A DNA stretch of 21,185 nt from a virus. The notes under the pieces were generated by a model, which ran no database searches, was not told where the DNA came from, and saw only the letters and a list, made by a program, of their open reading frames with translations. The position numbers and the translations under genes are program-made. Positions 2,413 through 17,000 of the stretch are shown here, one piece after another. The stretch spans positions 1 to 21,185 of the IMG/VR virus record IMGVR_UViG_3300036799_000044; one strand, 5' to 3'. Each line of letters opens with the position of its first letter. Position 1 is the stretch's first letter.

Positions 2413-2780
2413 CGACCAACGTTGACGCCCTCGCCATCCGTCGCGCGTTGGGCGTTGACTCGTGGGGACCGCCGCAACCGATGGGACCGGACGGGTGGAC
2501 GTTCCGCCGCAAGGACGGCGCGGCGTCGCTCATCGTCACGTGCGCCGATTGGGACGGCGTGGAGTGGCTCCACGCATCCATCGCGCCCAACGATCACCTA
2601 CCGGCGTACGGGGACCTCGTGGACCTCCATGACGTCGTGTGGCGCGGTCGCGGGTACGCGTTCCAAGTGTTCGCCCCGCAGACGCACCACGTGAATATCC
2701 ATCCCAACGCGCTTCACCTTTGGGGACGCCTCGACGGAGCCAACCCGCTACCGCCGTTCGGACAGTGGGGGACCATATGA
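2409..2780 (+). CDS. DUF7694-like conserved phage protein, 123 aa
   Basis: GTG start at 2409 in a GTGA overlap. The C-terminal two thirds carry WLHASIAPNDHLPAYGDL, then AFQVFAP, then HHVNIHPNALHLWGRLDG. I recognise this order as the DUF7694 domain found in many phage and prophage early regions. The family has no established activity. The conserved His and Asn residues near the end (HVNIHPN) could line an active or metal site. It sits directly before the RecB-type exonuclease with an ATGA overlap, in keeping with an accessory role in DNA metabolism. Confidence 0.8.
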   Translation: MTTNVDALAIRRALGVDSWGPPQPMGPDGWTFRRKDGAASLIVTCADWDGVEWLHASIAPNDHLPAYGDLVDLHDVVWRGRGYAFQVFAPQTHHVNIHPNALHLWGRLDGANPLPPFGQWGTI

Positions 2781-3547
2781 CGTTGCGCCGGATCAATCGC
2801 GGCTCGTGGCACCAATACCTAGACGGCGACCACGAACTCCCGGGCGTCACGACGATCCTGAATCACGTACTAGCCAAGCCCGCCCTAGTTGGTTGGGCGT
2901 CGCGGCTCTCCGCGGAGTACGTCGTGGACCATTGGGACGAACTCACGTCCATGTCCCCATCGGAGCGGCTCAAGGCGGTACGCGGCGCGACCGACCGGAC
3001 GTCCTCGTTCGCCATGAATCGCGGGACGCGCATCCACGAACTCGGGGAGCAACTCGTCCACGGGATAGAGGTTGAGGTCCCGGACGAACTCGTGGGACCC
3101 GTGGACGCGTACGCCCGCTATCTCGACACGTGGCACGTCGTCCCTATCGCCGTGGAGTCCCCGGTCGCGTCGCGCCGCTATCAGTACGGCGGGACGTTGG
3201 ACCTCATCGGGACCGACGCACGCGGGCTCACCTTTCTCGGAGATATCAAGACGGGCGCGGGCGTTTACTCCGACGTCGCTCTCCAACTCGCGGCGTACCG
3301 CTACGCGGAGGTCATGGTCCTCGACGGGGAAGAGTTGCCGTTGCCCGCCGTGGACGTCGTCCAAGTGATGCACGTCCTGTCAGACACGGTGCGCGTCGTC
3401 CCGGTCAACGCCGACGTTGTGGCGTTCCGCGCGTTTCTCCACCTACGCGAGACCTACCGCGCCGTACGCCCGTGGAAAGACGTTCCGCCGTTGGGCAATC
3501 CGATGGACTCGCCGCCCGCGCCGCCACGATTGGAGGCGGTCCGATGA
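2777..3547 (+). CDS. PD-(D/E)XK (RecB/Cas4-type) exonuclease, 256 aa
   Basis: ATG at 2777 in an ATGA overlap. The nuclease core is readable: GTRIHELGEQL (83-93, H87), E127 in AVESP, GGTLDLI (138-144, D142), DIKTG (156-160, with D156 and K158 as the D/E-x-K pair) and QLAAYR (170-175). These are the ordered motifs of RecB-family nucleases with the Q-xxx-Y helix. The likely job is 5'-to-3' resection of double-stranded DNA to make single strands for the RecT annealase two genes downstream, as in Exo/Bet-type pairs. It has no iron-sulfur cysteine cluster, unlike many Cas4 proteins. Length is normal for a phage exonuclease. Confidence 0.87.
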   Translation: MTLRRINRGSWHQYLDGDHELPGVTTILNHVLAKPALVGWASRLSAEYVVDHWDELTSMSPSERLKAVRGATDRTSSFAMNRGTRIHELGEQLVHGIEVEVPDELVGPVDAYARYLDTWHVVPIAVESPVASRRYQYGGTLDLIGTDARGLTFLGDIKTGAGVYSDVALQLAAYRYAEVMVLDGEELPLPAVDVVQVMHVLSDTVRVVPVNADVVAFRAFLHLRETYRAVRPWKDVPPLGNPMDSPPAPPRLEAVR

Positions 3548-3795
3548 GCCCGTCACCCGGACCAACGCAGACGATGGCCGCGCGCCAAATGCGGCTAGGG
3601 GACGTCCTTTTCGTGGACGACCTGCCGCACGCCATCACGGACATTGAGTGGGACGAGGGCGCGCAACTCGTCCACGTGGACCTCTCCGGGTTTGAGAGCG
3701 GCGTCGCCGGACCGTGGACGTTCGGCATGGATGACCAAGTGGACGTGACGCGTCCGTTTACCCGCCACGCAGAGACAGGGGACCACGACCTATGA
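3544..3795 (+). CDS. Small protein between exonuclease and RecT, 83 aa
   Basis: ATG at 3544 overlaps the exonuclease stop by ATGA. The protein has a short disordered start, then a probable beta-rich domain (MRLGDVLFVDDLPHAITDIE and onward), and is acidic overall. I do not recognise it. Its place inside the recombination cassette, with overlaps on both sides, suggests a helper or inhibitor protein acting with the exonuclease or RecT. That is an inference from position only. Confidence 0.7.
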   Translation: MSPSPGPTQTMAARQMRLGDVLFVDDLPHAITDIEWDEGAQLVHVDLSGFESGVAGPWTFGMDDQVDVTRPFTRHAETGDHDL

Positions 3796-3974
3796 CCGTG
3801 TTTCGTGCCACGTTCACGACGGAACTCGTGGACGGCAAACCGTTGGACAGTGAGTTTGTCCGGACCCATCTAGAGGAGGCGTTGGAGGACATTGGCGCAC
3901 TCTTCGTCATGGATGACGACGACCATGAGGCGGAGTACGACGTCACCGTGGGAACCGTTGAGGTCGTGGCATGA
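3792..3974 (+). CDS. Small acidic protein before RecT, 60 aa
   Basis: ATG at 3792 overlaps the previous stop by ATGA and its own stop overlaps the recT start. The sequence is an alternating beta/helix pattern (TVFRATFTTEL, then LEEALEDIGALFV, then YDVTVGTVEVV), like a small ferredoxin-like alpha/beta unit. It is rich in Asp/Glu, including MDDDDHEAE. The function is not recognised. Similar small acidic proteins often accompany phage recombinases, and DNA mimicry or protein binding is possible. Confidence 0.7.
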   Translation: MTVFRATFTTELVDGKPLDSEFVRTHLEEALEDIGALFVMDDDDHEAEYDVTVGTVEVVA

Positions 3975-5218
3975 CGACGCGGGAGGTTGCCATCCGCGAC
4001 CACGCGGACCTCATGGTCGCGCGGACGGACTCGTGGACGGCGGTCGTGGAGGACGTGGCGGTCCTCGCGCAACGCATTGCAGGGACCGAACTCGTCCCGT
4101 CCGCGTTGCGCGGCAAGGCACCCGCGGTCGCGGCGTCCATCCTCTACGGGCGCGAGATTGGTCTCCCGCCGATGACCGCTCTCCGCTCCGTCTACGTCGT
4201 GAACGGGCAAGTAGCCCTCAAGGCGGAAGCAATGCGCGGGCTCATCCTCGCCGCGGGTCATGAACTCGTGTTCACGGAGTCCACGGCGGCACGGTGCGTC
4301 GTGCGGGCTCGTCGCAAGACGCAGGAGGATTGGTCGGAGGTCACGTGGACCATTGACGACGCGCGCCGCGCCGGGCTCGTCAAGCCCGGGTCCGCATGGA
4401 ACGGCTACCCGCGCGCAATGCTCAAGGCGCGGGCAACGGGCGAGATTGCGCGCGACCTCTTCGCGGACGTCATCGCCGGATTCGTTGCGTTGGAGGAGGT
4501 AGACGGCGCGGAGCCCGACGTCCCGCAGCACGACGGCACGGAGCCGCGTGCGCCGAAAGCCGTCACCCGCAAACGGACCACGCCCAAGGGCGGCGTACCG
4601 GGCTTCCCGTCCACGTACCCGAAATCGCAACCCATCCCGGGTGACCGCGAACTCCCCTACGAGGCTCCCGCCTCTCCCCCCGGTGATGGTCCTTCCCCGG
4701 GTGGGGAGGCGGGCATAGTCCCTCTCCCGGGTGAGCCCGGATACGGCGACGACATGGTCCCTACCGACATGCCGCCGCCGCCCACGTCCGATGCGGCGTC
4801 CCCCCCGCCTACGTCGGATGAGGACCCACCCGGGGGAGGCCCGCGCGAGGACGAGCCGCGCGATACGTCGGCGTTCCGCACCTACCCGGCGCAACGCACC
4901 AAGTTGCACGCCATCCTCACGGAACTAGGTGTCCGCGACCGCGACGTCCGGCTCCGTCTCGCAGGCATGGTGATTGGTCGGACCCTTGAGTCCTCCAATG
5001 ACCTCACCCGCGGAGAGGCGTCCGTCCTCATTGACACGCTAGAGAAAGTCAACGCGTCACAGACGATGAGAGAGGCGCTAACCGCCGTCCTGGCGTCGGC
5101 GGACCCGGTCGCGCAGTTGGACGCCATCGCGGACCGTATCGGCGCGCTAGCGGCCATCGCGGACGGCGACGTTCCCCCGGAGCCACCGGACGACGACCCG
5201 TGGCACACAGACACGTGA
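3971..5218 (+). CDS. recT: RecT-family ssDNA-annealing recombinase with long C-terminal extension, 415 aa
   Basis: ATG at 3971 in an ATGA overlap. Residues 1-175 form a RecT core; the LYGREIGLPPMTALRSVYVV segment (58-77) followed by LKAEAMRGLILAAGHELVF is the diagnostic part. The family anneals single strands and pairs with a 5' exonuclease, here at 2777-3547. After the core comes a Pro/Gly/Asp-rich linker (about 185-300) with a repeated PPPTSD motif, then a second compact domain (about 304-365, QRTKLHAILTELGVRDRDVR...LTRGEASVLIDTLE). That domain resembles small helical modules on other actinophage replication or recombination proteins. Family members are usually near 270-330 aa, so this one is extended. 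The end overlaps the next gene by GTGA. Confidence 0.88.
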   Translation: MTTREVAIRDHADLMVARTDSWTAVVEDVAVLAQRIAGTELVPSALRGKAPAVAASILYGREIGLPPMTALRSVYVVNGQVALKAEAMRGLILAAGHELVFTESTAARCVVRARRKTQEDWSEVTWTIDDARRAGLVKPGSAWNGYPRAMLKARATGEIARDLFADVIAGFVALEEVDGAEPDVPQHDGTEPRAPKAVTRKRTTPKGGVPGFPSTYPKSQPIPGDRELPYEAPASPPGDGPSPGGEAGIVPLPGEPGYGDDMVPTDMPPPPTSDAASPPPTSDEDPPGGGPREDEPRDTSAFRTYPAQRTKLHAILTELGVRDRDVRLRLAGMVIGRTLESSNDLTRGEASVLIDTLEKVNASQTMREALTAVLASADPVAQLDAIADRIGALAAIADGDVPPEPPDDDPWHTDT

Positions 5219-5580
5219 CGACGAACTACCGCACGGGCACGCGGCTTGAGTACCGCGCGATGGAACTCCTCCGCCGCCGCGGATGGTTCGTGGTGCGCTC
5301 CGCGGGCTCGCACGGTCCCGCCGACGTGGTCGCCCTGTCCCCCACGGACGGGCACGCGCTACTCGTGCAATGCAAGTCGGGACGGCTCACCCATGAGGAT
5401 TGGCAAGGACTCCGCGACCTCGCGCTCCGCTACCGCGCCGTGCCTGTCATCGCCGCATGGACCGAGACGCGCCGCGGCGTCGTGTGGCTTGTCATCACCG
5501 CGGACCACGTACCCGGGTCGCACCAATGGCCCGCCATCACCTACGACCTAGGACGCGCCCAAGACCCCGTCGCGCTCTAG
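5215..5580 (+). CDS. Hjc-like Holliday junction resolvase (PD-(D/E)XK), 121 aa
   Basis: GTG at 5215 in a GTGA overlap with recT. The order is R-x-E at E12 (GTRLEYRAMELLRRRGW), VVRSAGSHGPADVVAL with S29, S32 and D37, then LLVQCKSGRL with Q52 and K54. It matches the archaeal-Hjc-like resolvases common in actinophages, in which the usual E-x-K can appear as Q-x-K. The predicted role is to cut four-way junctions made by recombination or replication, clearing branches before packaging. It follows exonuclease and RecT in the same transcript. Another restriction-like endonuclease role cannot be excluded. Confidence 0.82.
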   Translation: MTTNYRTGTRLEYRAMELLRRRGWFVVRSAGSHGPADVVALSPTDGHALLVQCKSGRLTHEDWQGLRDLALRYRAVPVIAAWTETRRGVVWLVITADHVPGSHQWPAITYDLGRAQDPVAL

Positions 5581-5606
5581 GACGCCCGTATCCGTAGAGG
5601 CGTGAC

Positions 5607-5942
5607 ATGCCGAGAATCCGCACTATCAAGCCCGGGTTTTGGTCGGACGCGGGCGTGGTCTCCCTGTCCCACGAGGCGCGCCTACTCCTCATTGGGCTCA
5701 TCTCAATGGCAGACGACGAGGGACGTTTCGTTGCGACGCCCGCCGCCATCCGCGGGTACGTCTACCCGTTCGATGACGTCACGGACGTGTCCGTTCGCAA
5801 GCGCCGCGACGAGATAGCGAAAGTGGGAATCGTCTACGTCTACTCGGCGGACGGGTTGGAGTTGGGTCAACTCCCCAACTTCCTACGGCACCAACGCGTC
5901 AACCGTCCGACGCCCTCCGTCATCCCGCCGCCGCCGTCGTGA
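5607..5942 (+). CDS. Replication-initiator-type winged-helix N-terminal domain, 111 aa
   Basis: ATG at 5607 with GTAGAGG upstream; a 26-base gap makes it the only early gene without an overlap at its start. The opening MPRIRTIKPGFWSD...LSHEARLLLIGLISMADDEGRF and the closing LPNFLRHQRVNRPTPS are characteristic of phage replication (DnaD/replisome-organiser-like) proteins, whose first domain is a winged helix. Those proteins normally run on for 100-250 more residues through a charged linker to a second domain. This one stops directly after the PSVIPPPPS boundary, so it is either truncated or split. It probably binds the origin. See the findings on 5939-6954. Confidence 0.8.
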   Translation: MPRIRTIKPGFWSDAGVVSLSHEARLLLIGLISMADDEGRFVATPAAIRGYVYPFDDVTDVSVRKRRDEIAKVGIVYVYSADGLELGQLPNFLRHQRVNRPTPSVIPPPPS

Positions 5943-6394
5943 CCATCCGCGAGACCGCGGAGGACCGCGTCCACGAGCAAGAGGTCGTGGACGTGCTCGC
6001 GCCAATCTGGCATTGCGAGTTTGCGCGGTTCCCCATCGCACGGGCACCGTTCGATTTCATCGCGCATCGTGGCGGCGTGGCCCTCTCGCTCGTGGAGGTC
6101 AAATGCCGTACGCGATTGCTTGCGGGCCTCCCGTTCCTGTGGATCAACGCGCACAAGTGGTACGACCTCCGGGAGCACGCCAACGTTTGGGAGGTCCGTC
6201 CGCTATACGTCGCGCGGTTCCGCGACGCCATCGCGTGGGTTGACCTTCACACGGTGGACGTCACGTCGCCCCGGGTCACCGGACGCAAGGACCGCGGCGA
6301 CCCGGACGACCTTGACCTAGCCCTCCGCATCCCGCGCGAGCATTGCAACGTGATCCCTCTCCCGGCGCAGGACAACGGCGTGGACTCATGGTGA
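5939..6394 (+). CDS. Putative PD-(D/E)XK-type endonuclease, 151 aa
   Basis: GTG at 5939 in a GTGA overlap. The core reads PFDFIAHRGG (D39) followed by SLVEVKCRTR with E53 and K55, the D...E-x-K signature of the PD-(D/E)XK fold. E14/E15 in the first helix could be the motif I acid. The second half (FLWINAHKWYDL, then WEVRPLYVARF) fits the helix and strand after the core. The exact family is not recognised; VSR-like nicking enzymes and resolvase-like nucleases are possible. It is the third nuclease of this superfamily in the early operon. It lies between a replication winged-helix gene and what may be the rest of that gene. Confidence 0.7.
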   Translation: MTIRETAEDRVHEQEVVDVLAPIWHCEFARFPIARAPFDFIAHRGGVALSLVEVKCRTRLLAGLPFLWINAHKWYDLREHANVWEVRPLYVARFRDAIAWVDLHTVDVTSPRVTGRKDRGDPDDLDLALRIPREHCNVIPLPAQDNGVDSW

Positions 6395-6401
6395 AAGCCA
6401 T

Positions 6402-6459
6402 GAGCGGCTCACGCCCTCCTCAGTGAGCCCGCACGGAGCGGCTCACGCGGTCCTCAGTG
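6402..6459. repeat. 24-bp direct repeat, two copies, 34-bp period
   Basis: Copies at 6402-6425 and 6436-6459 share 22 of 24 bases (GAGCGGCTCACGC, three bases, CCTCAGTG). Copy 1 includes the palindrome TGAGCGGCTCA (6401-6411). They lie in the gap between the early operon and the packaging genes. Candidates are iterons of an origin, protein-binding sites of cos, or remains of a coding repeat. Confidence 0.85.
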
Positions 6460-6461
6460 GC

Positions 6462-6498
6462 GGAAGGGGAAGGGGAAGGGGAAGAGGAAGGGGAAGAG
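6462..6498 (+). repeat. 37-base polypurine tract built of GGGGAA units
   Basis: All 37 bases are purines. The core (6466-6495) is five hexamers GGGGAA, GGGGAA, GGGGAA, GAGGAA, GGGGAA. Such a strand-asymmetric tract can form triplex or unusual DNA and is typical of Gly/Lys/Arg/Glu-rich linkers in phage replication genes. No complete gene covers it here. Confidence 0.9.
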
Positions 6499-6508
6499 TG
6501 ATGGTGAC

Positions 6509-6556
6509 CCATCCATGAGACCTACAGGTGGTAGGGCGCATCCGCGCAATGGATGG
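6509..6556. repeat. Nested inverted repeats before the 6571 gene
   Basis: CCATCCAT (6509-6516) pairs with ATGGATGG (6549-6556, or the shifted copy 6553-6560). Inside it CCTAC (6521-6525) pairs with GTAGG (6531-6535) over a 5-base loop. In mRNA the outer stem would hide the GGATGG that could act as ribosome-binding site for 6571; in DNA it could extrude as a cruciform. Confidence 0.6.
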
Positions 6557-6570
6557 ATGGCGTCCACGCA

Positions 6571-6954
6571 ATGACGACAGAGACACAACTCCGCGCCATC
6601 GTGGAACTCGTCCACGCAATCCGTCCGGGATGGGACCGTGCGGGCATCTACTCCGCATGTCATAGCGCCGCCGCAACACGACCGTTGGACAACGTCGCGC
6701 ACGCCGCGATAGACGCCGCGATGGACAAGACCGCGAGGACGCCCGCCGTCATCGGCACCCGTGACCGCACGTGGCAACCGACGTTGCCGACGTTGGGCAA
6801 TCCGCCGCCCGTCGCGCAAGCCATCCACGATCCGCGCCAACCCGACGAGGTCACGAGCCGTGGTGCCGCCAATGCGCGGCAAGCCCTCGCCAAAGCGCGA
6901 GCCCGGGTGGACGATGACGCCAACGCCGCCACTCCCCCCCGGGACAAGCCATGA
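6571..6954 (+). CDS. Conserved actinophage protein, possible C-terminal half of a replication protein, 127 aa
   Basis: ATG at 6571 is chosen, with GGATGG 10 bases upstream; an in-frame ATG at 6553 would add six residues. The segment AIVELVHAIRPGWDRAGIYSACHSA, then AIDAAMDKTARTPAVIGTRDRTW, matches a short domain I know from actinophages. There it stands alone or as the last part of a replication protein whose first part resembles 5607-5942. The C-terminal 45 residues are Ala/Arg/Asp-rich and probably disordered. The biochemical function is unknown. It overlaps the next tiny gene by ATGA. Confidence 0.72.
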   Translation: MTTETQLRAIVELVHAIRPGWDRAGIYSACHSAAATRPLDNVAHAAIDAAMDKTARTPAVIGTRDRTWQPTLPTLGNPPPVAQAIHDPRQPDEVTSRGAANARQALAKARARVDDDANAATPPRDKP

Positions 6955-7038: not shown

Positions 7039-8913
7039 GTGCCCCTGCACCTGACGCATGACACGACGTGGGAGTGGGGCAAGCGTCGGCAATGGTGGGC
7101 GGCGCGCTTGCCCTACCCGTGCCCGTTGTGCGGCGAGGACGTGACGCCCGATGACCCGACGTGGGAACTCCATCACCTAGACCTAGGTGACGCCCGGTCC
7201 GACGACGAGACCGCGCCGTCCCATCGCCGTTGCAATCGCGCCGACGGACTGCGTCGCGGACTTGCCAAGCGCAACGCCGCATTGGGATTACCGCGGAATG
7301 GCGCAAACGCAAGTGACGATGCGCGTTTTTTGAGCGACGGCTACGACCCGCAGCACACTGACCCGCTAGAAAATCCCCCCCCGCGGGCGGACGTACCCGA
7401 AACCGTCGCCGCTTCACCGGACGCGGCGGACAACGTTTGGGATAGCGCCGAATGGCTCCAATCTCTCCGGACGGTTCCCGCGGATGGGGCGTGGCCGCGG
7501 TACATGTCCGCGCCGCATCCCCGCGCGGTCGGCACGTACGGTCCGGATTTCGTGCGTTGGGTCCGCGACACGTACGGCGTCGGGTTGCGTTGGTGGCAAC
7601 GGCTCGCGGCGTACCGCGTGTTGGAGCATGACGACGCGGGCGAGTTGGTTTGGCTCGTGTGGTTGGTCTCGACGCCGCGACAGGTGGGCAAGTCTTGGTG
7701 GCTCCGGGCTTTGTTCCTGTGGCGCATCCACCAAGGGGAGCGTTTCGGGGAGCCGCAACTCGTGTTGCACACGGGCAAGGACTTGCCCGTCTGCCGTGAG
7801 GTGCAACGTCCGGCGAGGGCGTGGGCGCGTCGTCGTCGGGGCGACGGCTACCACGTGCGGGAGACCAACGGACAGGAGGAGATTGAGACTCCGGACGGTT
7901 CGCGTTGGATGGTCCGCGGTCGTGACTCCGTCTACGGATATTCGGCGTCCCTAGGCGGCGTTGACGAGGCGTGGCACGTGGAGCCCGTCGTGGTGGAGGA
8001 GGGCATGGAACCGACGATGCCGGAACGCTCTAGCCCGCAACTAGGGCTCGTCTCGACGGCGCACCGTTTGGCGACCGCGCTCTATCCGTCGCGTCGTGAC
8101 GGCGCGTTGGCGGAGTTGGTCGCGCCCGTGGACACGTTGGTCATCGAATGGTCCGCGCCATCGTTCGCGGACATGGGCGACGTGGATACGTGGCGCGCGG
8201 CGTCCCCGCATTGGACGACGAAACGGGAGCGGCTCGTGACGTCCAAGTGGACGCGTGCGCTCGCGGGCACGTCGGACGACCCGGACGAGCCGGACCCGGT
8301 GGAGGCGTTCCGCGCGCAATGGCTCAACGTGTGGCCCGACCGCACGGCACCCAAGCCGACGAGGGATGAGCCGTTGTTTGCGGACGGCTTGTGGGCGGCG
8401 GCATGCGACATTGGCGCGTCCGCGGTCGGCCCGGTCGTCGTCGCCGTGGAGGACTTTTTCGGCAAGGGCGCGGCGGCGGCGGCGTGTGGCGTCACGGGGG
8501 ACGGTCGGCTCGTCGTGTGGGGCGAGACGTTCGACCGTCGCGGCGACGCGTTCGGGTGGGCCTCGTTGGTGACCGCGAGCCGTCCCGGGTCGCGTCTCGT
8601 CGTCGGCGGATCGTTGGTGGGTGACGAGTGGTGCGCCACGGTGCCCGTTGTCTCGACGTCCGCGGCGGGCGTCGCGGAGACCAAGCGCGGGTTGCCGTTG
8701 CTCCGCGAGTTGGTGGCATCGGGCGGGCTCGTGCATGACGGCGGGACGAGTCTTGCCGCGCAGGTTGGCGCAACGTGGGTCACGCCGCTTCCGTCCGGGC
8801 TCGTCCCGTCCTCCCGTGCGGGGCGTACGGACTTGGTGCGTTGCGCGTCGTGGTGCGTCGCGTTGACGTCGCGGGCCGCGGAGCCCGCACCGTTGGAGTT
8901 TTTCGTCTACTGA
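7039..8913 (+). CDS. terL: HNH endonuclease-large terminase fusion, 624 aa
   Basis: GTG at 7039. Residues 20-75 are an HNH nuclease domain: C28-x2-C31 (CPLC), ELHH with H45/H46, and SHRRCN (H62, C65, N66). From about residue 135 follows the large terminase. It has a Walker A-like STPRQVGKS (211-219), Walker B GGVDEAW (306-312, D309/E310), coupling motif VST (338-340), the FRAQWLNVW linker (424-432) and an RNase-H-like nuclease with VEDFFGKG (470-477) and D598. The ATPase drives DNA into the head and the nuclease makes the cuts. In HK97-type cos phages a separate HNH protein assists terminase; here both are in one chain. A spacer (about 80-135) joins them. No small terminase gene is visible. 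Confidence 0.92.
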   Translation: MPLHLTHDTTWEWGKRRQWWAARLPYPCPLCGEDVTPDDPTWELHHLDLGDARSDDETAPSHRRCNRADGLRRGLAKRNAALGLPRNGANASDDARFLSDGYDPQHTDPLENPPPRADVPETVAASPDAADNVWDSAEWLQSLRTVPADGAWPRYMSAPHPRAVGTYGPDFVRWVRDTYGVGLRWWQRLAAYRVLEHDDAGELVWLVWLVSTPRQVGKSWWLRALFLWRIHQGERFGEPQLVLHTGKDLPVCREVQRPARAWARRRRGDGYHVRETNGQEEIETPDGSRWMVRGRDSVYGYSASLGGVDEAWHVEPVVVEEGMEPTMPERSSPQLGLVSTAHRLATALYPSRRDGALAELVAPVDTLVIEWSAPSFADMGDVDTWRAASPHWTTKRERLVTSKWTRALAGTSDDPDEPDPVEAFRAQWLNVWPDRTAPKPTRDEPLFADGLWAAACDIGASAVGPVVVAVEDFFGKGAAAAACGVTGDGRLVVWGETFDRRGDAFGWASLVTASRPGSRLVVGGSLVGDEWCATVPVVSTSAAGVAETKRGLPLLRELVASGGLVHDGGTSLAAQVGATWVTPLPSGLVPSSRAGRTDLVRCASWCVALTSRAAEPAPLEFFVY

Positions 8914-8928: not shown

Positions 8929-9081
8929 ATGCCGGTTCGCAAGAGCGGCGGCGGCTACCGATACGGGAGCACGGGCAAGACGTACCGCGGCAAGGGTGCG
9001 AAAGCGAAAGCGGCACGGCAGGGGCGGGCCATCAAGGCAAGCCAAGCGCGACGGAAGGGGACGACCGATGGCAACGCGTAG
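8929..9081 (+). CDS. Small basic conserved protein after terminase, 50 aa
   Basis: ATG at 8929 with GGGAGG six bases upstream. The start MPVRKSGGGYRYGSTGKTYR and the following GAKAKAARQGRAI stretch match a short Lys/Arg/Gly-rich protein that I recognise from many actinophage packaging regions, usually beside terminase or portal. Its function is not established; DNA or capsid binding would suit its charge. The stop TAG at 9079-9081 lies past the portal start, an overlap of 14 bases. Confidence 0.8.
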   Translation: MPVRKSGGGYRYGSTGKTYRGKGAKAKAARQGRAIKASQARRKGTTDGNA

Positions 9082-10276
9082 GGACGCCACGCGGCGTCTC
9101 GCGGGCTCGCGGGGAGTCTCGCCGCGGACGGCACGGCTCGCACGTCCGCGGGAGTATTCGTGGCTCCTCGACGGCACGCCGCCCGCGGGCGAGGTCTACC
9201 CGGCGACCGAATGGGAGGCGATGGGTCTACCGCCGTTTGGCCGTTCCGTCGTCATCCTGGCGTCCGCGATTGCGGGCACGCCGTGGCACGCGGAGACGTG
9301 GGACGCGGACCGCGGTATCTCGCAACGCATCGCGGACCAACCCGCCGTCTTGGTGGACCCGTTCCCGGATCAATCACAGTGGGCGTACCGATGGGGCGCG
9401 ACGGAGGACGGCATCCTCTACGGCAATCACTTCGCCCTCATGGGGGACATTGACTTTCGCACGAACCGTCCCGGGTGGGTCGTGCCCGTGCCCGCGGACC
9501 AAGTGTGGATCGGTCAGGACCCGGCGAATCCTTGGGACTATTGGTGGACCATCGCGGGCGAGACGTTCACCCGCGACGAGGTCCTCCACGTGCCGTACGG
9601 CGCGCGCTCCGGTGAGGTCTTGGGTCGCGGCGTCCTCGCGCAGTACGGGCAATGGTTGGGCGGTCCGGTCGCGGCGGAACGTCACGCGGCTAACTACTTC
9701 GCAGGCGGCGCGCTACCTCCCGCGGTCCTGTCCGCACCCGTGCCCATCACGCAAACCCAAGCCGACGAACTCAAGGGAAAGTGGTTCGCGCTCACGGCGA
9801 CACGAGAGCCGATGGTCCTCCCCGCGGGCTACACGTTGACGCCCGTTGTCAGCAACGCGGAGCAAGCGCAACTCGTGGAGTCCCGCACGTGGGACGCGAC
9901 GATGGTCTCCCAAATCGTCGGCGTCCCGTATTGGATGCTCGGGTTGCAGGGACCGTCCATGACGTACCTCAACGTGGAGGGCTCGGACATTGCGTTCGTC
10001 CGGGACTACGCGGACCGTTGGGCGCAACCGTTGTCCGCGGCGTACTCCAAGTGGATGATGCCGCGCGGGACGTCGGTCGCGTGGGATTGGACTTCGCGGA
10101 TGCGCTCTGACTCCGCCTCCACGGCGGGCGTCCTCAAGACGCTCACGGACGCGGGCATCGTCACCAAGGACGAGGCGCGCGCCGTCCTTGGTCGCCCGCC
10201 GTTGACAGATACGACCGCTCCCGGGTCCACGCCCGCGGGCGTTCCGGAACTCACTCCCGGGAGTGTGGCCCAATGA
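9068..10276 (+). CDS. Portal protein (HK97/phage_portal type), 402 aa
   Basis: ATG at 9068 with AAGGGG seven bases upstream. An in-frame reading further upstream overlaps the 50-aa gene and has no better start. The sequence has the order of HK97-type portals: an N-terminal region with WEAMGLPPFGRSVVILASAIAGTPWH, a central VVPVPADQVWI, ...DEVLHVPYG, then ITQTQADELKGKW and VSQIVGVPYWMLG...NVEGSDIAFVRDY near the stem and wing, and a polar C-terminal tail. It forms the dodecameric ring at one head vertex through which terminase pumps DNA. It overlaps the protease start by ATGA. Confidence 0.9.
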   Translation: MATRRDATRRLAGSRGVSPRTARLARPREYSWLLDGTPPAGEVYPATEWEAMGLPPFGRSVVILASAIAGTPWHAETWDADRGISQRIADQPAVLVDPFPDQSQWAYRWGATEDGILYGNHFALMGDIDFRTNRPGWVVPVPADQVWIGQDPANPWDYWWTIAGETFTRDEVLHVPYGARSGEVLGRGVLAQYGQWLGGPVAAERHAANYFAGGALPPAVLSAPVPITQTQADELKGKWFALTATREPMVLPAGYTLTPVVSNAEQAQLVESRTWDATMVSQIVGVPYWMLGLQGPSMTYLNVEGSDIAFVRDYADRWAQPLSAAYSKWMMPRGTSVAWDWTSRMRSDSASTAGVLKTLTDAGIVTKDEARAVLGRPPLTDTTAPGSTPAGVPELTPGSVAQ

Positions 10277-10884
10277 CCGAACTCATCATTGAGCGCGCCG
10301 CTACCGCGTTAGAGCCGATTGGCGACGGATGGACCGTCTACGGTCGCGCCGTCCCCTACGGCGTGGAGCAACGCGTTACCGACGACGGCGGGCGGACGTG
10401 GTACGTGGAGGAGTTTGCCCGCGGCGCGTACTCCCGCGACGCCGCCAAGGGCGGACGTTGGGTCAATCTCATGGTTGGTCATTTGGGCGACGATGGCGAC
10501 CGCTTCCTAGGGCGTTGCGTGGAGTTGGCGGAGCAGGATGACGGCGCGTACGCCGCGTTTCGTCTTGACCGTTCGCACCCGTTGGCGGAAGCGGCGCGGT
10601 CCGGGGAGTTGACGGGTTGGTCCGTCTCGGCGCACGTCTACCGTTCCCGCGGAATCCTCCGCGGCGGATCGGAGGTCATGCTCCGGGAGGTTTGTGGGTT
10701 GCGCCATGTGGCGGCAACTCCGGTCCCGCAGTATGCGGGCGCGGGCGTCCTCGTCGCGCGGCACCACGAGTTAGTAACCCAGGCGTCGCGGCCACGTCTC
10801 GACGCGTGGCGCGCCAAGGGATACCTTGCGGGCAAGAGTCCAGATAACGAGCCGCCACCCGGGCTAGCCGCCACCCGGCCTTAG
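10273..10884 (+). CDS. HK97-family prohead protease, 203 aa
   Basis: ATG at 10273 in an ATGA overlap with the portal gene. The early GDGWTVYGRAVPYG strand pair, the catalytic His in NLMVGH (H70) and the serine motif LTGWSVSAH (S117 or S119), then EVCGLRHVAATPVPQYAGA, are the family's landmarks in order. It cleaves the N-terminal delta domain of the capsid protein during maturation and probably itself. The last residues (NEPPPGLAATRP) are encoded by the first two copies of a 12-bp repeat that runs on past the stop into the gap before the capsid gene. Confidence 0.9.
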   Translation: MTELIIERAATALEPIGDGWTVYGRAVPYGVEQRVTDDGGRTWYVEEFARGAYSRDAAKGGRWVNLMVGHLGDDGDRFLGRCVELAEQDDGAYAAFRLDRSHPLAEAARSGELTGWSVSAHVYRSRGILRGGSEVMLREVCGLRHVAATPVPQYAGAGVLVARHHELVTQASRPRLDAWRAKGYLAGKSPDNEPPPGLAATRP

Positions 10885-10919: not shown

Positions 10920-10960
10920 TCACAGAGGACGCGTCATCCCTTGTGACCCGGAGGCTTACG

Positions 10961-12223
10961 GTGCCCGGATACCTCGACAGACTCAACGCGGAATTTGACG
11001 GCATCACGGAGGGCGTCAACGCCATCCTTGAGCGCGCCGCGGACGCGGACCGCGACGTGACCGACGACGAACAAGCGCAGATTGACCGCGATGACACGCG
11101 CCGTCAGGAACTCACCCGCAGCATTGAGCACTACACGGAGATTGAGGAGCGGTCCGGACGGGTCGCCACTCTCCGCGGACGTGTCGCCGCGGGTCCGCGC
11201 GTCGTCACGCCGCGCGCCCCGGAGGAGCCCGCGTACGACGTCCTCCGCGAGTTTCCGACCGCGGCGCATTGGGCCATCGCGCTCCACCGATCCATGACGA
11301 TGCGCGACGCGGACGCTACCGCCGCCATTGAGCGCGCGACCGCGCACCAAATGACCACGGACAACGTCGGGCTTATCCCGCGTCCGATTCTTGGTCCCGT
11401 CGTGTCGATGCTTGACGCAACGCGCCCGTTCATCTCGTCAGTGACGAACCGTCCTCTTCCCACGGGCAAGTTTGACCGCCCCAAGGTGACGCAGCACGTC
11501 GCCATCGGGAAACAAGCCGTAGAGAAAGACCTCACGGCGTCGCAGAAAATGACCATCGGGAATCTTCCGGTGACGGCGGCGACGTACGCGGGTCACCTGA
11601 ACATCTCGCGCCAGGACGTCAAGTGGACGTCTCCCGCCATCCTCCAAATCGTGTTTGACGACTTCGCCGCCATCTACGCGGACCAAACCGACGCGGACGC
11701 GTGCGCGCAGTTTGTGGCGTCGGTCGTGGCGGCGGGCGTGGACGCGGGCGCGACGTACGGGGACCTCCTCGTGGCTCTCTATGGCGCGGCGGGTGCGACG
11801 TACTCCGCGGGCAACGGTCTCCCGGACACGTTGTGGGTCGCCCCCAACGTGTGGGCGCAACTCGGCGGGATGCTCACTCAGCCCGGAGGCGCGGCGGCGT
11901 TCCCGGGTCTGTCCATCCGCAACCCGTCGTCCGGTTCGCCGCTCGGGCTTGACCTCGTCGTGGACCATCACTTCGCGGCGGATACGGCCATCCTTGGTCC
12001 CGCACGGCTCGCGGAGTGGTACGAGGACGTGGACGGGCTCCTACAGGTGCAAGAGCCGGACGTCCTCGGTCAGATGGTCGGCTACGCGGGTTATGGCGCG
12101 TTCCTCAACGTCAACCCGGCGTCCTTCACGCCCATTGAGGGCATCGGGTCGCTCATCCCGCCCGTTGCGGCGGGACAGGGCGGCGGCGGCGGGTCCACGT
12201 CGGGTCAGACCACGCGCCGATGA
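10961..12223 (+). CDS. Major capsid protein (HK97 fold), 420 aa
   Basis: GTG at 10961 is chosen because GGAGG lies seven bases upstream; GTG at 10943 would add six residues without such a site. Residues 1-85 are helical and charged (ITEGVNAILERAADADRDV and onward), the delta/scaffold domain normally removed by the protease. From about 130 the HK97 fold follows, with TGKFDRPKVTQHVAIGKQAV, then TIGNLPVTAATYAGHLNISRQ, a long P-domain and NPSSGSPLGLDLVVDHHF near the end. The C-terminal tail is Gly/Ser-rich. It builds the icosahedral shell. No separate scaffold gene is present, in keeping with the built-in delta domain. Confidence 0.92.
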   Translation: MPGYLDRLNAEFDGITEGVNAILERAADADRDVTDDEQAQIDRDDTRRQELTRSIEHYTEIEERSGRVATLRGRVAAGPRVVTPRAPEEPAYDVLREFPTAAHWAIALHRSMTMRDADATAAIERATAHQMTTDNVGLIPRPILGPVVSMLDATRPFISSVTNRPLPTGKFDRPKVTQHVAIGKQAVEKDLTASQKMTIGNLPVTAATYAGHLNISRQDVKWTSPAILQIVFDDFAAIYADQTDADACAQFVASVVAAGVDAGATYGDLLVALYGAAGATYSAGNGLPDTLWVAPNVWAQLGGMLTQPGGAAAFPGLSIRNPSSGSPLGLDLVVDHHFAADTAILGPARLAEWYEDVDGLLQVQEPDVLGQMVGYAGYGAFLNVNPASFTPIEGIGSLIPPVAAGQGGGGGSTSGQTTRR

Positions 12224-14072: not shown

Positions 14073-14207
14073 GTGGAGTTGGCGGTCGCCACGAACACGA
14101 GCCCGCGGGATTGGTGGGACGAGGACCCGCAAACGGTCTTGACCGCCGCCGCGGTCCTTGAGGCAAACGCGGAAGCGATGAGGAGAGGAGGGCGACGACA
14201 TGGCTAA
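14073..14207 (+). CDS. Tail assembly chaperone, C-terminal frame (gpT-like), 44 aa or frameshift extension
   Basis: This frame, -1 relative to 13771-14070, reads VELAVATNTSPRDWWDEDP, then QTVLTAAAVLEANAEAMRRGG. The P-R-x-W-W-x-E-D-P core is typical of the C-terminal chaperone part that recruits the tape measure. GTG at 14073 follows the first stop by two bases, so re-initiation is possible. More likely it is made by a programmed -1 frameshift, giving a chain of roughly 140 residues. No ribosome-binding site is visible before 14073. It overlaps the tape measure start by 8 bases. Confidence 0.65.
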   Translation: MELAVATNTSPRDWWDEDPQTVLTAAAVLEANAEAMRRGGRRHG

Positions 14208-15726
14208 CGCGTTGCTCTCGATCAAACTCGTTGCCGACGCGAGCCAAGCCGTTTCCGAACTCAACAAAGCCGACGCCGGGACGTCCAAGTGGTCCAAGGG
14301 GATCGGTCGGGCGTCCGCGGTCGCAACGGTCGGGCTCGCCGCCGTGGGCGCGGTCATGCTCTCCGGAGTCAAATCCGCCGCGGAGGACGCGCAGGGGCAA
14401 GCGTTGCTCGCCAAGAGCATGGAAAACGCCGCGGGCGCGTCCAGGAAACAGGTTGCGGCAACAGAGGATTGGATCACCAAGACTTCCCAAGCGACGGGCG
14501 TTGCCGACGACGACCTTCGTCCCGCGCTCGGATCGCTCGTGCGCGCGACGGGCGACGTGGAGAAATCTCAAAAGGCAATGTCGCTCGCGTTGGATATCTC
14601 CGCCGCGACGGGCAAGGACGTTGGTGCCGTCTCGGACGCGCTCGCCAAGGGATACGGCGGGCAGACGACGGCGCTAGGTCGGCTCGTTCCCGGTCTCTCC
14701 AAGGCCATCCTTGCGTCCGGCGACATGAATGCGATTACCGCCGAACTCGCACGCACGACGGGCGGGTCCGCCGCCGCGTCCGCGGAGACCGCGGCGGGTC
14801 AGTACAAAATCCTGACGAACAATCTCAACGAGACGAAAGAGGGCATCGGCGCGGCGTTGCTCCCGGTCGTGACGCAACTCGCAACCAAGATGGCGGGACT
14901 AGCAAAGATCGCGCAGGACAACAGTGGGACGTTGACGATCCTCCTAGGAGTGTTCGCCGCGCTCGCCGCAATCGTCGTCACGGTCAACGCCGTGACCAAG
15001 GCATGGACCGCGATACAGACCATCGCCAAGGTTGCGACCACGGCGTGGAGCGTCGCTAACAGGGTCCTGACCGTGACGATGCTCGGCATCCCGATTTTTC
15101 TCATCATCGCGGCGGTCGCCGCCCTCGTCGCCATCATCATCGTTGCGTACAAAAACTCAGACACGTTCCGTCGCATCGTGGACGCCGCGTTCCGCGCGGT
15201 CCAAGCGGCGGCGGCGTTCGCATGGAACTGGATCAAGGCCAATTGGCCGCTACTCCTCGCCATCATCACGGGACCCATCGGCATTGCGGTCCTCGTCATC
15301 GCCCGGCATTGGGACGCGATCAAGAGCGGCGCGTCCGCGGTCATCGGATGGTTCCGGTCCTCATGGGACGCACTCCAAGCCATCATCGTTGCGCCGTTCA
15401 CCGCGGCATGGTCCGCCATATCCGGAGTCATCGCCAAAATCCGGGACGCGGTCGCCAACGTCACGGATCTCATCCACAAAATCCCGGTCCCCAAAATCCC
15501 GCATATCCCGGGACTCAACGCGACGGGCGGGACCGCGACCACGGGCGCAACGGCAACATTCCGCGGCGTCGCACGGGCTCCCGCCGCCGCTCGCGGCACG
15601 ACGGGCGGCGGCGGGGCAACCGTCAACGTGTATGGGGCGTTGGACCCGGAGGCGGTCGCGCGCCAGATTGGCCGCATACTCGGCGCGCACGACGTCCGGG
15701 TGGGACGCGCCGTGGTGACGCCGTGA
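14200..15726 (+). CDS. Tail tape measure protein (short), 508 aa
   Basis: ATG at 14200 with GGAGAGGAGG ideally placed upstream. The N-terminal half is a helical, Ala/Lys/Ser-rich repeat-like chain (LLSIKLVADASQAVSELNKAD and onward) and includes TGKDVGAVSDALAKGYGGQTTALGRL, a segment typical of tape measures. Hydrophobic stretches at 244-267, 294-317 and 349-369 are the usual membrane-active part. Trp-rich helices (WNWIKANWP, WDAIKSG, WFRSSWDAL) follow. The Gly/Thr/Ala-rich C-terminus ends in an AVVTP strand. At about 0.15 nm per residue it predicts a tail near 75 nm, short for a siphovirus. It overlaps the next gene by GTGA. Confidence 0.92.
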   Translation: MANALLSIKLVADASQAVSELNKADAGTSKWSKGIGRASAVATVGLAAVGAVMLSGVKSAAEDAQGQALLAKSMENAAGASRKQVAATEDWITKTSQATGVADDDLRPALGSLVRATGDVEKSQKAMSLALDISAATGKDVGAVSDALAKGYGGQTTALGRLVPGLSKAILASGDMNAITAELARTTGGSAAASAETAAGQYKILTNNLNETKEGIGAALLPVVTQLATKMAGLAKIAQDNSGTLTILLGVFAALAAIVVTVNAVTKAWTAIQTIAKVATTAWSVANRVLTVTMLGIPIFLIIAAVAALVAIIIVAYKNSDTFRRIVDAAFRAVQAAAAFAWNWIKANWPLLLAIITGPIGIAVLVIARHWDAIKSGASAVIGWFRSSWDALQAIIVAPFTAAWSAISGVIAKIRDAVANVTDLIHKIPVPKIPHIPGLNATGGTATTGATATFRGVARAPAAARGTTGGGGATVNVYGALDPEAVARQIGRILGAHDVRVGRAVVTP

Positions 15727-17000
15727 CCGTGGGAACGCACCGTGTCCGTTGGTGGCCCGTCACCGGAGCCGCGCCCGGGACGGACCTCTCGTGCGACGTG
15801 CAAGAGGCAACGGTCCATCACGGGCGGGACGACCCGACGTCGCAACCGGAGGCGTCCACGGCAACTCTCACATTCCCGGGCGACGTCCCGCCGACGATGG
15901 ATATTGGTGCGTCCCTCGTTGTGGAGACCCAACACGGCGGGACGTGGTTTCCGCGTTTCGTCGGCACGGTGACGGACGTCGGGCTTACATGGGACGTCGG
16001 ACGCGGGACGTACGGCGCGGAGCCGGACGTGGTGCCGCGTGGGCAAGTCATGGGAGCCGGAGCGCTCGCGGGGACGGGGCGGCGGTACATCGGTGACGTC
16101 CCGTGGCCGCAGGAGAGCGACGGCGCGCGGGCGGGTCGTATCCTTGCCGCCGCCGCCGCCACGGTCGGGCAAGTGGACCCGGGCACGGTGCAACTCCTCC
16201 CCCGCGACGTGGACCGCAAAGCCGCCCTAGAACTCCTAGGGGATACCGCGAACGATGGCGGCGGCGTCGTGTGGGAGTCCGCGGACGGGCTCCTCAACTA
16301 CGCAGACGCGGACCATCGCCGGAACACTCCGCCCGCGGCCACGTTGGACGCGTGCGACGTCCTCATGGCTCCGCATTGGTCCAAGACCGCCGCGGGTCTC
16401 GTCAATGACGTTGCCGTTGCGTACGGCATCCCCCCGGACGGCGGAGACCAACCCGTCGTGACCACCACCAATGCGGCGTCCATCGCCGCGTACGGGCGTT
16501 ACGCGTACTCCGTCACAACGGAACTCGCCGCGTTGGCGGACGCGCAAGCCCGCGCCCAAACATTGACGGTGCGCGGCGGGTACCCGGCATGGAACGTCAC
16601 GGACCTCCCGTTGGACCTCTCCGTCCTAGACGACGCACTCACGGACCTAGTGCTCGGGCTTGAGGTCCACGACCTCCTCCAACTCGTCGGACAACCCGCG
16701 GGGACGCCGTCCCCGGGCGCGGTCAACTCCCTATGGATTGAGGGTTGGACGGAACGGCTCACCTACGGCGGGCACGAACTCACCTTTTCCGTGTCGGCGT
16801 ACTGCCGCACCGTGCCGCCGCCCCGATGGAATGACGTTTCGCCGTCGCAGACATGGGACTCCACGTTGCCCTCCGCGACATGGGACTCCGCCTCGTGTCT
16901 TGGTCCGCAACCGTCCCTAGGGCGTTGGGACGATACGGCGGCGTCCCTCCGATGGGACGAGGTCCCCGCCGCCACAACGTGGGATACATGGAAGGGATGA
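15723..17000 (+). CDS. Minor tail protein with C-terminal W-D nonapeptide repeats, 425 aa
   Basis: GTG at 15723 in a GTGA overlap. The first two thirds are beta-rich (TATLTFPGDVP, LVVETQHGGTWFPRFVGTVTDV, then ARAGRILAAAAATVGQVDPG), in the manner of actinophage tail-tip proteins that follow the tape measure. Residues 368-425 hold a repeat of about nine residues starting [R/T]-W-[D/N], with Trp at 369, 378, 387, 402, 411 and 420. It probably builds the tail tip or hub. The repeat may be a beta stack for surface contact or trimerisation. No lysozyme or peptidase motif is seen. Confidence 0.78.
   Translation: MTVGTHRVRWWPVTGAAPGTDLSCDVQEATVHHGRDDPTSQPEASTATLTFPGDVPPTMDIGASLVVETQHGGTWFPRFVGTVTDVGLTWDVGRGTYGAEPDVVPRGQVMGAGALAGTGRRYIGDVPWPQESDGARAGRILAAAAATVGQVDPGTVQLLPRDVDRKAALELLGDTANDGGGVVWESADGLLNYADADHRRNTPPAATLDACDVLMAPHWSKTAAGLVNDVAVAYGIPPDGGDQPVVTTTNAASIAAYGRYAYSVTTELAALADAQARAQTLTVRGGYPAWNVTDLPLDLSVLDDALTDLVLGLEVHDLLQLVGQPAGTPSPGAVNSLWIEGWTERLTYGGHELTFSVSAYCRTVPPPRWNDVSPSQTWDSTLPSATWDSASCLGPQPSLGRWDDTAASLRWDEVPAATTWDTWKG

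Follow-up and report, generated by a model that had tools for sequence, protein, structure and literature searches.

An HNH domain fused to the large terminase, with a cos-like element inside the fused gene, in mostly uncultured actinobacterial phages

Introduction

Phage HK97 carries out cos packaging with a small terminase subunit (TerS), a large subunit (TerL) and an HNH protein, gp74, which promotes cos cutting, and the catalytic acids of its TerL are D302, D388 and D471 (PMC9410871). Motors of the phi29 type have no TerS and a vestigial nuclease domain, and they work with protein-capped unit genomes and a pRNA (PMC9410871). In P22, the pac site lies inside the TerS gene (PMC9611059). The gene order of cultured actinophages is mostly HNH-cos-TerS-TerL, and HNH is the last gene in BFK20, Greenhouse, Kuleana and Sleepyhead, as well as in HK97. 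For HK97-like phages, it is still debatable how HNH proteins and TerL divide the work at cos.

In this computational study, we analyzed a complete IMG/VR record, 21,185 bases long (hereafter the window), in which an HNH domain and TerL are encoded as a single chain, and we report this fusion, its conservation, the exchange of its HNH type, the lack of a recognizable TerS, the loss of the motif II acid of TerL and the clustering of contig ends within the gene. The locus resembles HK97 in its TerL fold and in the type of its HNH by profile, the HK97 HNH gene lying at the right genome end, but here the HNH is fused, no TerS was found, the acid equivalent to HK97 D388 is lost and cos apparently lies inside the fused gene. 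In BFK20, Arthrobacter phages Greenhouse and Kuleana and Rhodococcus phage Sleepyhead, all with cos ends, TerL can be aligned with the window TerL over its whole length, and the last-gene HNH belongs to phrog_338 in the three tested, as does the window-type HNH; however, HNH, TerS and TerL are three genes in these phages, with cos between HNH and TerS. A packaging signal within a terminase gene, as proposed here, recalls P22, yet that phage uses pac-type headful packaging, whereas here the cut would split each packaged gene copy at one fixed place. Like phi29-type motors, the window has no TerS that we could find and has lost a nuclease acid, but phi29 packages protein-capped unit genomes with a pRNA, whereas the genome ends in the present family look cohesive, as judged from contigs. 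Literature searches, made largely among papers open without subscription, turned up neither an HNH-TerL fusion nor a cos inside a terminase gene as described cases. We consider it likely (probability of roughly 0.7) that HNH and TerL were fused across cos, that TerS was lost and that the genome ends split the fused gene.

Results

The HNH domain and TerL form one chain

An earlier note on the window had placed an HNH nuclease at the N-terminus of a large terminase and had named C28, C31, H45/H46, H62, C65 and N66 as its residues, all of which are present in the sequence. C28, C31, H62 and C65 are the Zn ligands, while H46 is presumably the general base and H45 and N66 are taken by us to be metal ligands; together, C28, C31, H46, H62, C65 and N66 would supply the Zn knuckles and the catalytic H..N/H set of an HNH enzyme. 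The ORF runs without interruption from end to end (Table 1). A Pfam search of the HNH-TerL protein gave no match, and its residues 153-501 match phrog_9 (large terminase) with E=6.6e-20. The window HNH domain alone matches phrog_338 weakly (E=0.0044), but the HNH assignment is secure at the family level: the corresponding domain of a sibling, L013, reaches 7.9e-8, and an hhalign comparison of the window-type domain with standalone HNH proteins of cultured phages (actinophages and HK97) gave 97% with E=9.8e-11.

An AlphaFold2 model of the whole chain, built from 66 family sequences, has a mean pLDDT of 89 (block means of 66-93 over HNH residues 11-80) and predicts ordered HNH and TerL domains joined by a disordered linker. 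The closest solved structure is HK97 TerL (6z6d; Z 24.9, 414 residues, rmsd 9.2), the rmsd reflecting two domains that are hinged differently or loosely placed, and the nuclease domain matches that of Sf6 gp2 (5c12) with a Z of 13.7. K218, D309 and E310 are invariant across 132 family members, and the protein is a large terminase by its Walker A/B ATPase and terminase fold.

In comparison with L002, a relative of the same architecture that is 82% identical, substitutions over the three codon positions are distributed as 15/8/35 in HNH, 62/42/158 in TerL and 16/16/15 in the linker. The third-position peak in both HNH and TerL indicates that both domains are translated in the frame of this ORF, while the even distribution in the linker suggests that its protein sequence is little constrained. 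A frameshift artifact that would separate the two domains was ruled out, as the fusion is kept in many independent records, including RefSeq genomes of Nocardioides, Nostocoides and Kribbella.

Table 1. Features of the HNH-TerL locus in the window (position 1 is the first base of the window).
Feature	Positions	Strand	Details
Genes at the expected TerS place	5607-6954	+	none TerS-like
Replication initiation protein	5607-5942	+	
PD-(D/E)XK nuclease	5939-6394	+	
Small protein, unknown function	6553-6954	+	
HNH-TerL fusion gene	7039-8913	+	1875 bases, 624 aa, GTG start; conserved in L002 and about 100 relatives
HNH domain (beta-beta-alpha metal, endonuclease VII-like)	7039-7284	+	residues 1-82; sequence, AlphaFold2, phrog_338, hhalign
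Linker	7285-7428	+	residues 83-130, disordered at 88-116 (pLDDT <50); substitutions even over codon positions
Cos-like element inside the ORF	7326-7382	+	T6 at 7326-7331, C8 at 7375-7382, 49 nt start to start; spacing as in L018 and L019
Predicted cohesive end and left-end first base	7351-7360	+	9 nt CAGCACACT at 7351-7359; predicted first base 7360, codon 108; predicted from relatives
TerL ATPase domain	7429-8337	+	residues 131-433; Walker A 211-219 (STPRQVGKS), Walker B D309-E310
TerL RNase H-like nuclease domain	8362-8889	+	residues 442-617; catalytic positions E471, G523 (acid lost), D598
Portal	8996-10276	+	
Head maturation protease	10273-10884	+	
Major capsid protein	10943-12223	+	

Relatives and exchange of the HNH module

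Two scans of IMG/VR gave 315 and 261 relatives, from each of which the best 80, i.e., the most similar, were kept, with some near-duplicate records among them. Twelve relatives were found in bacterial genomes, mostly of Nocardioides and also of Nostocoides, Kribbella and Propionicimonas, and no close relative was found among 50,697 phage records; the group is a large, mostly uncultured set of actinobacterial phages. A fused HNH-type domain is present in about 104 of the 106 relatives with a readable N-terminus. The two exceptions are L094, with the HNH in a different frame, and L095, in which a separate HNH-like ORF lies immediately upstream of TerL, so that the fusion is not obligatory. The top full-length structural matches, among predicted structures, are proteins of uncultured Caudovirales named 'HNHc domain containing protein' (for example A0A6J5RK67, 602 aa, and A0A6J5QUV0), which, to judge by the structural match, apparently carry the same fusion. 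The HNH-TerL architecture is hence already in databases, without a description as far as we found.

The fusion family forms one clade relative to cultured TerLs in the TerL tree, and its HNH domains fall into four classes, assigned by sequence pattern. Over all groups, the HNH label changes at least 14 times on this tree, and in L122 and L162, whose TerL parts are 75% identical, the HNH domains cannot be aligned; the HNH type has been swapped repeatedly between lineages. Phage HNH genes are often mobile, and such exchange would also be expected of a selfish homing endonuclease inserted before TerL. This explanation is most improbable, as the HNH was never lost among about 100 fused relatives, is always N-terminal and in frame, and belongs to the same family as the HNH genes that adjoin cos.

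Search for a small terminase

The earlier note had seen no gene resembling a small terminase, and our searches agree: neither the upstream ORFs nor TerS-family profiles yielded one, canonical or otherwise recognizable. PF23931 (TerS), which does detect TerS in several outgroup phages, had no match in the window record and the records of 33 relatives, nor did PF05119 and PF03592 in the window record and those of 19 relatives. For 122 upstream ORFs, the listed Pfam families include no TerS family, and the listed Pfam and PHROG families (the first 25) comprise replication, recombination, methylase and lysis genes. The small protein of unknown function directly upstream of the fusion was considered as a TerS and rejected, since it has no family match and is matched only by its counterpart in L002.

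These results mean that no TerS was detected, not that none exists. TerS proteins are short and diverge strongly between families, the genome-wide search covered three Pfam families and most records are fragments, all of which leaves room for a small terminase that is too divergent, or too far from TerL, to be recognized. We nevertheless regard a hidden TerS as unlikely, because 15 provirus or contig records of 15-24 kb gave no match and the upstream genes belong to replication and recombination, with no conserved unknown among them.

Independently of this search, the HNH of BFK20 (L112 3091-3381) also matches phrog_4581, annotated 'terminase small subunit', at 7e-4, and HNH-TerS fusions may therefore exist. 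In gene content, the window itself resembles a small temperate siphophage: besides an exonuclease, RecT, a replication initiation protein, HNH-TerL and the portal, protease and capsid proteins, it encodes a major tail protein, a tape measure, an endolysin and an integrase, and in view of these last four a tail-less satellite is not favored.

The TerL nuclease site

In a profile alignment, E471 and D598 fall on HK97 D302 and D471, and G523 takes the second-acid position (HK97 D388), based on alignment with cultured TerLs and on the strand order of the model, in which G523 closes strand 519-523. Over the 132 family members, motif I is E in 123, motif II is G in 125 and motif III is D in 97, and the motif II residue is acidic in only two. 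Of the full terminase ATPase plus nuclease claimed in the earlier note, the ATPase part holds, whereas a full nuclease is doubtful: the fold is there, but of the three catalytic acids of a TerL nuclease that of motif II is missing. This loss is not specific to the fusion. The second position is D or Q in cultured actinophage TerLs, and the seven of 15 with Q (L083, L097, L099, L100, L102, L104 and L105) keep a normal TerS alongside, so that lack of the motif II acid does not exclude a protein from the TerL family. Degeneracy of the TerL nuclease may be wider, including cultured actinophages with TerS.

Judged from its sequence, the RNase H-like domain may be inactive, and with the motif II acid lost the HNH would be the likely cos-cutting enzyme. 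The roles could also be reversed, the N-terminal domain serving chiefly to bind DNA through its zinc knuckle and to recognize cos in place of TerS, while the RNase H-like domain cuts, using E471, D472 and D598. Several observations are compatible with such an arrangement: (i) in class C, G-H and C-S replace the usual D-H and C-N in 30 of 30 members, so that HNH cutting cannot be general unless other ligands serve; (ii) the motif I and motif III acids are largely retained; and (iii) the TerLs of cultured phages that have Q at motif II are presumably functional. However, window-type domains retain all of the HNH residues and match phrog_338, to which the standalone genome-end HNH of cultured actinophages belongs, and an acid at motif II is all but absent from the family, and for these reasons we hold the DNA-binding role to be somewhat unlikely and prefer cutting by the HNH.

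Among cultured phages, the TerL of McGonagall (L109 520-1905) has apparently lost all three nuclease acids, and no HNH is annotated in its 17-kb genome; it was dropped as a parallel case on account of the missing HNH annotation and because gp1 is named TerS in the RefSeq copy. The TerL of Mycobacterium phage Hughesyang (L098 999-3359) carries a long, intein-like insert in its N-terminal part.

Contig ends and the cos-like element

Since cultured actinophages have the order HNH-cos-TerS-TerL, a fusion of HNH with TerL should leave cos between the two, and contig ends were therefore inspected, all of the end evidence coming from assembled contigs. Upstream of TerL there are 136 contig 5' boundaries. 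One 100-nt stretch over the linker holds 53 of them, against a background of about one per 100 nt, and another 24, mostly of class B, lie upstream of HNH at a distance of 450-650 nt from the anchor. Among non-redundant boundaries no more than 700 nt from the anchor, 46 of 82 start within 22 nt of a pyrimidine (C or TC) run, compared with 2 of 45 boundaries farther upstream and 1.1% of random 40-mers. Several contigs start at an identical base when mapped on L164 or L172. Because Pfam PF01844 detected HNH in only two of 20 contigs, far ends were read directly; an HNH at the far end is known in only about seven contigs (L027, L121, L129, L131, L152, L170 and L181), all long, in which TerL stands at one end and the HNH part at the other as an open frame running off the contig. 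L170 begins at a point that departs from the motif, and L181 continues 40 nt beyond it at its far end. For class B contigs, the far ends were uninformative. L129 agrees with the uninterrupted L136 and L137 as far as it reaches at either end, minus exactly 9 nt, a gap that keeps the frame and is what would be expected from a 3' overhang trimmed in library making.

A T-run and a C- or TC-run about 40-50 nt apart bracket a point in the linker in 39 of 80 intact relatives as against 4 of 1789 control windows, the patterns having been written after the ends had been seen and about half of the intact relatives missing the strict motif. Sleepyhead, Kuleana, Greenhouse and Barkley26, as deposited, likewise have a C-run about 7-11 nt in from the left end. 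In L018/L025 and L019/L035, the apparent cut lies 34-35 nt after the start of the T-run and 15 nt before the C-run, and the L018/L025 rule places the cut of the window at the same base from both sides (34 nt after the start of the T-run and 15 nt before the C-run; Table 1), within the disordered linker. Around this predicted cut, 'ACACTGACC' is common to the window and L002, while the rest of the linker has diverged. The HNH hence adjoins the terminase with a cos-like element between them, the arrangement of HNH-dependent cos packaging, and the contig ends at this putative cos would be cos ends. The corresponding site of class B relatives would precede the entire gene, which would then not be split.

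Contig ends of this kind might alternatively be assembly breaks, arising where coexisting strains share TerL and differ in HNH, so that assemblers halt at the junction and a circular or concatemeric genome emerges opened at that point. HNH modules are exchanged, so an assembly graph could branch there, and homopolymer runs are nearby in what are throughout assembled data. Yet class B ends lie upstream of HNH and not at the HNH/TerL junction, different contigs begin at the same base, the 9-nt gap preserves the frame, a similar C-run is found near deposited ends of cultured actinophage genomes, and the C-run is contained in the contigs and so is not itself the break. Assembly breaks are quite unlikely in our view, and we read the ends as probable cos ends.

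Proposed packaging cycle

We propose that HNH and TerL were joined into a single reading frame across cos, with TerS gone and cos persisting as DNA within the linker-coding stretch. The HNH domain, tethered to the motor, would cut cos in the concatemer to give short cohesive ends, and TerL would then pump the DNA. As the cut would fall in the linker, each packaged genome would have one part of the terminase gene at either end, and annealing and ligation of the ends after infection would restore the gene. A cos inside the terminase gene would couple gene integrity to circularization. The earlier note had taken the fusion to fix a 1:1 ratio and supposed that it might do part of the work of TerS; as purposes of the fusion, both are speculative. 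In its strongest form, held tentatively and at somewhat less than even odds, the proposal describes a TerS-free motor with a dead RNase H domain, in which only the HNH cuts cos and the enzyme splits its own gene in every packaged genome; if this is true, terminase is not made in a new host before end ligation. A family with a one-chain HNH-TerL, a lost TerL nuclease acid and no TerS found offers a ready two-mutant test of the cutter, and the T-run/C-run element provides a sequence signature for locating the ends of uncultured actinophage genomes.

Some minor observations concern gene content and genome size. A recombination cluster (2639-6394) stands shortly before the terminase in the window, with an exonuclease (2639-3547), RecT (3971-5218), an Hjc-like nuclease (5200-5580) and the PD-(D/E)XK nuclease of Table 1. 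The tape measure ORF (14200-15726) shares about 500 nt with a 592-aa ORF (15222-17000) that lies in another frame; the latter has no PHROG match, and its true start is probably later. Finally, the proviruses of a second clade (L118, L120, L122, L123, L125, L144, L146, L151, L161, L190 and L196) are nearly all about 15.4-18 kb long, and HNH-TerL fusions may accompany very small temperate phages.
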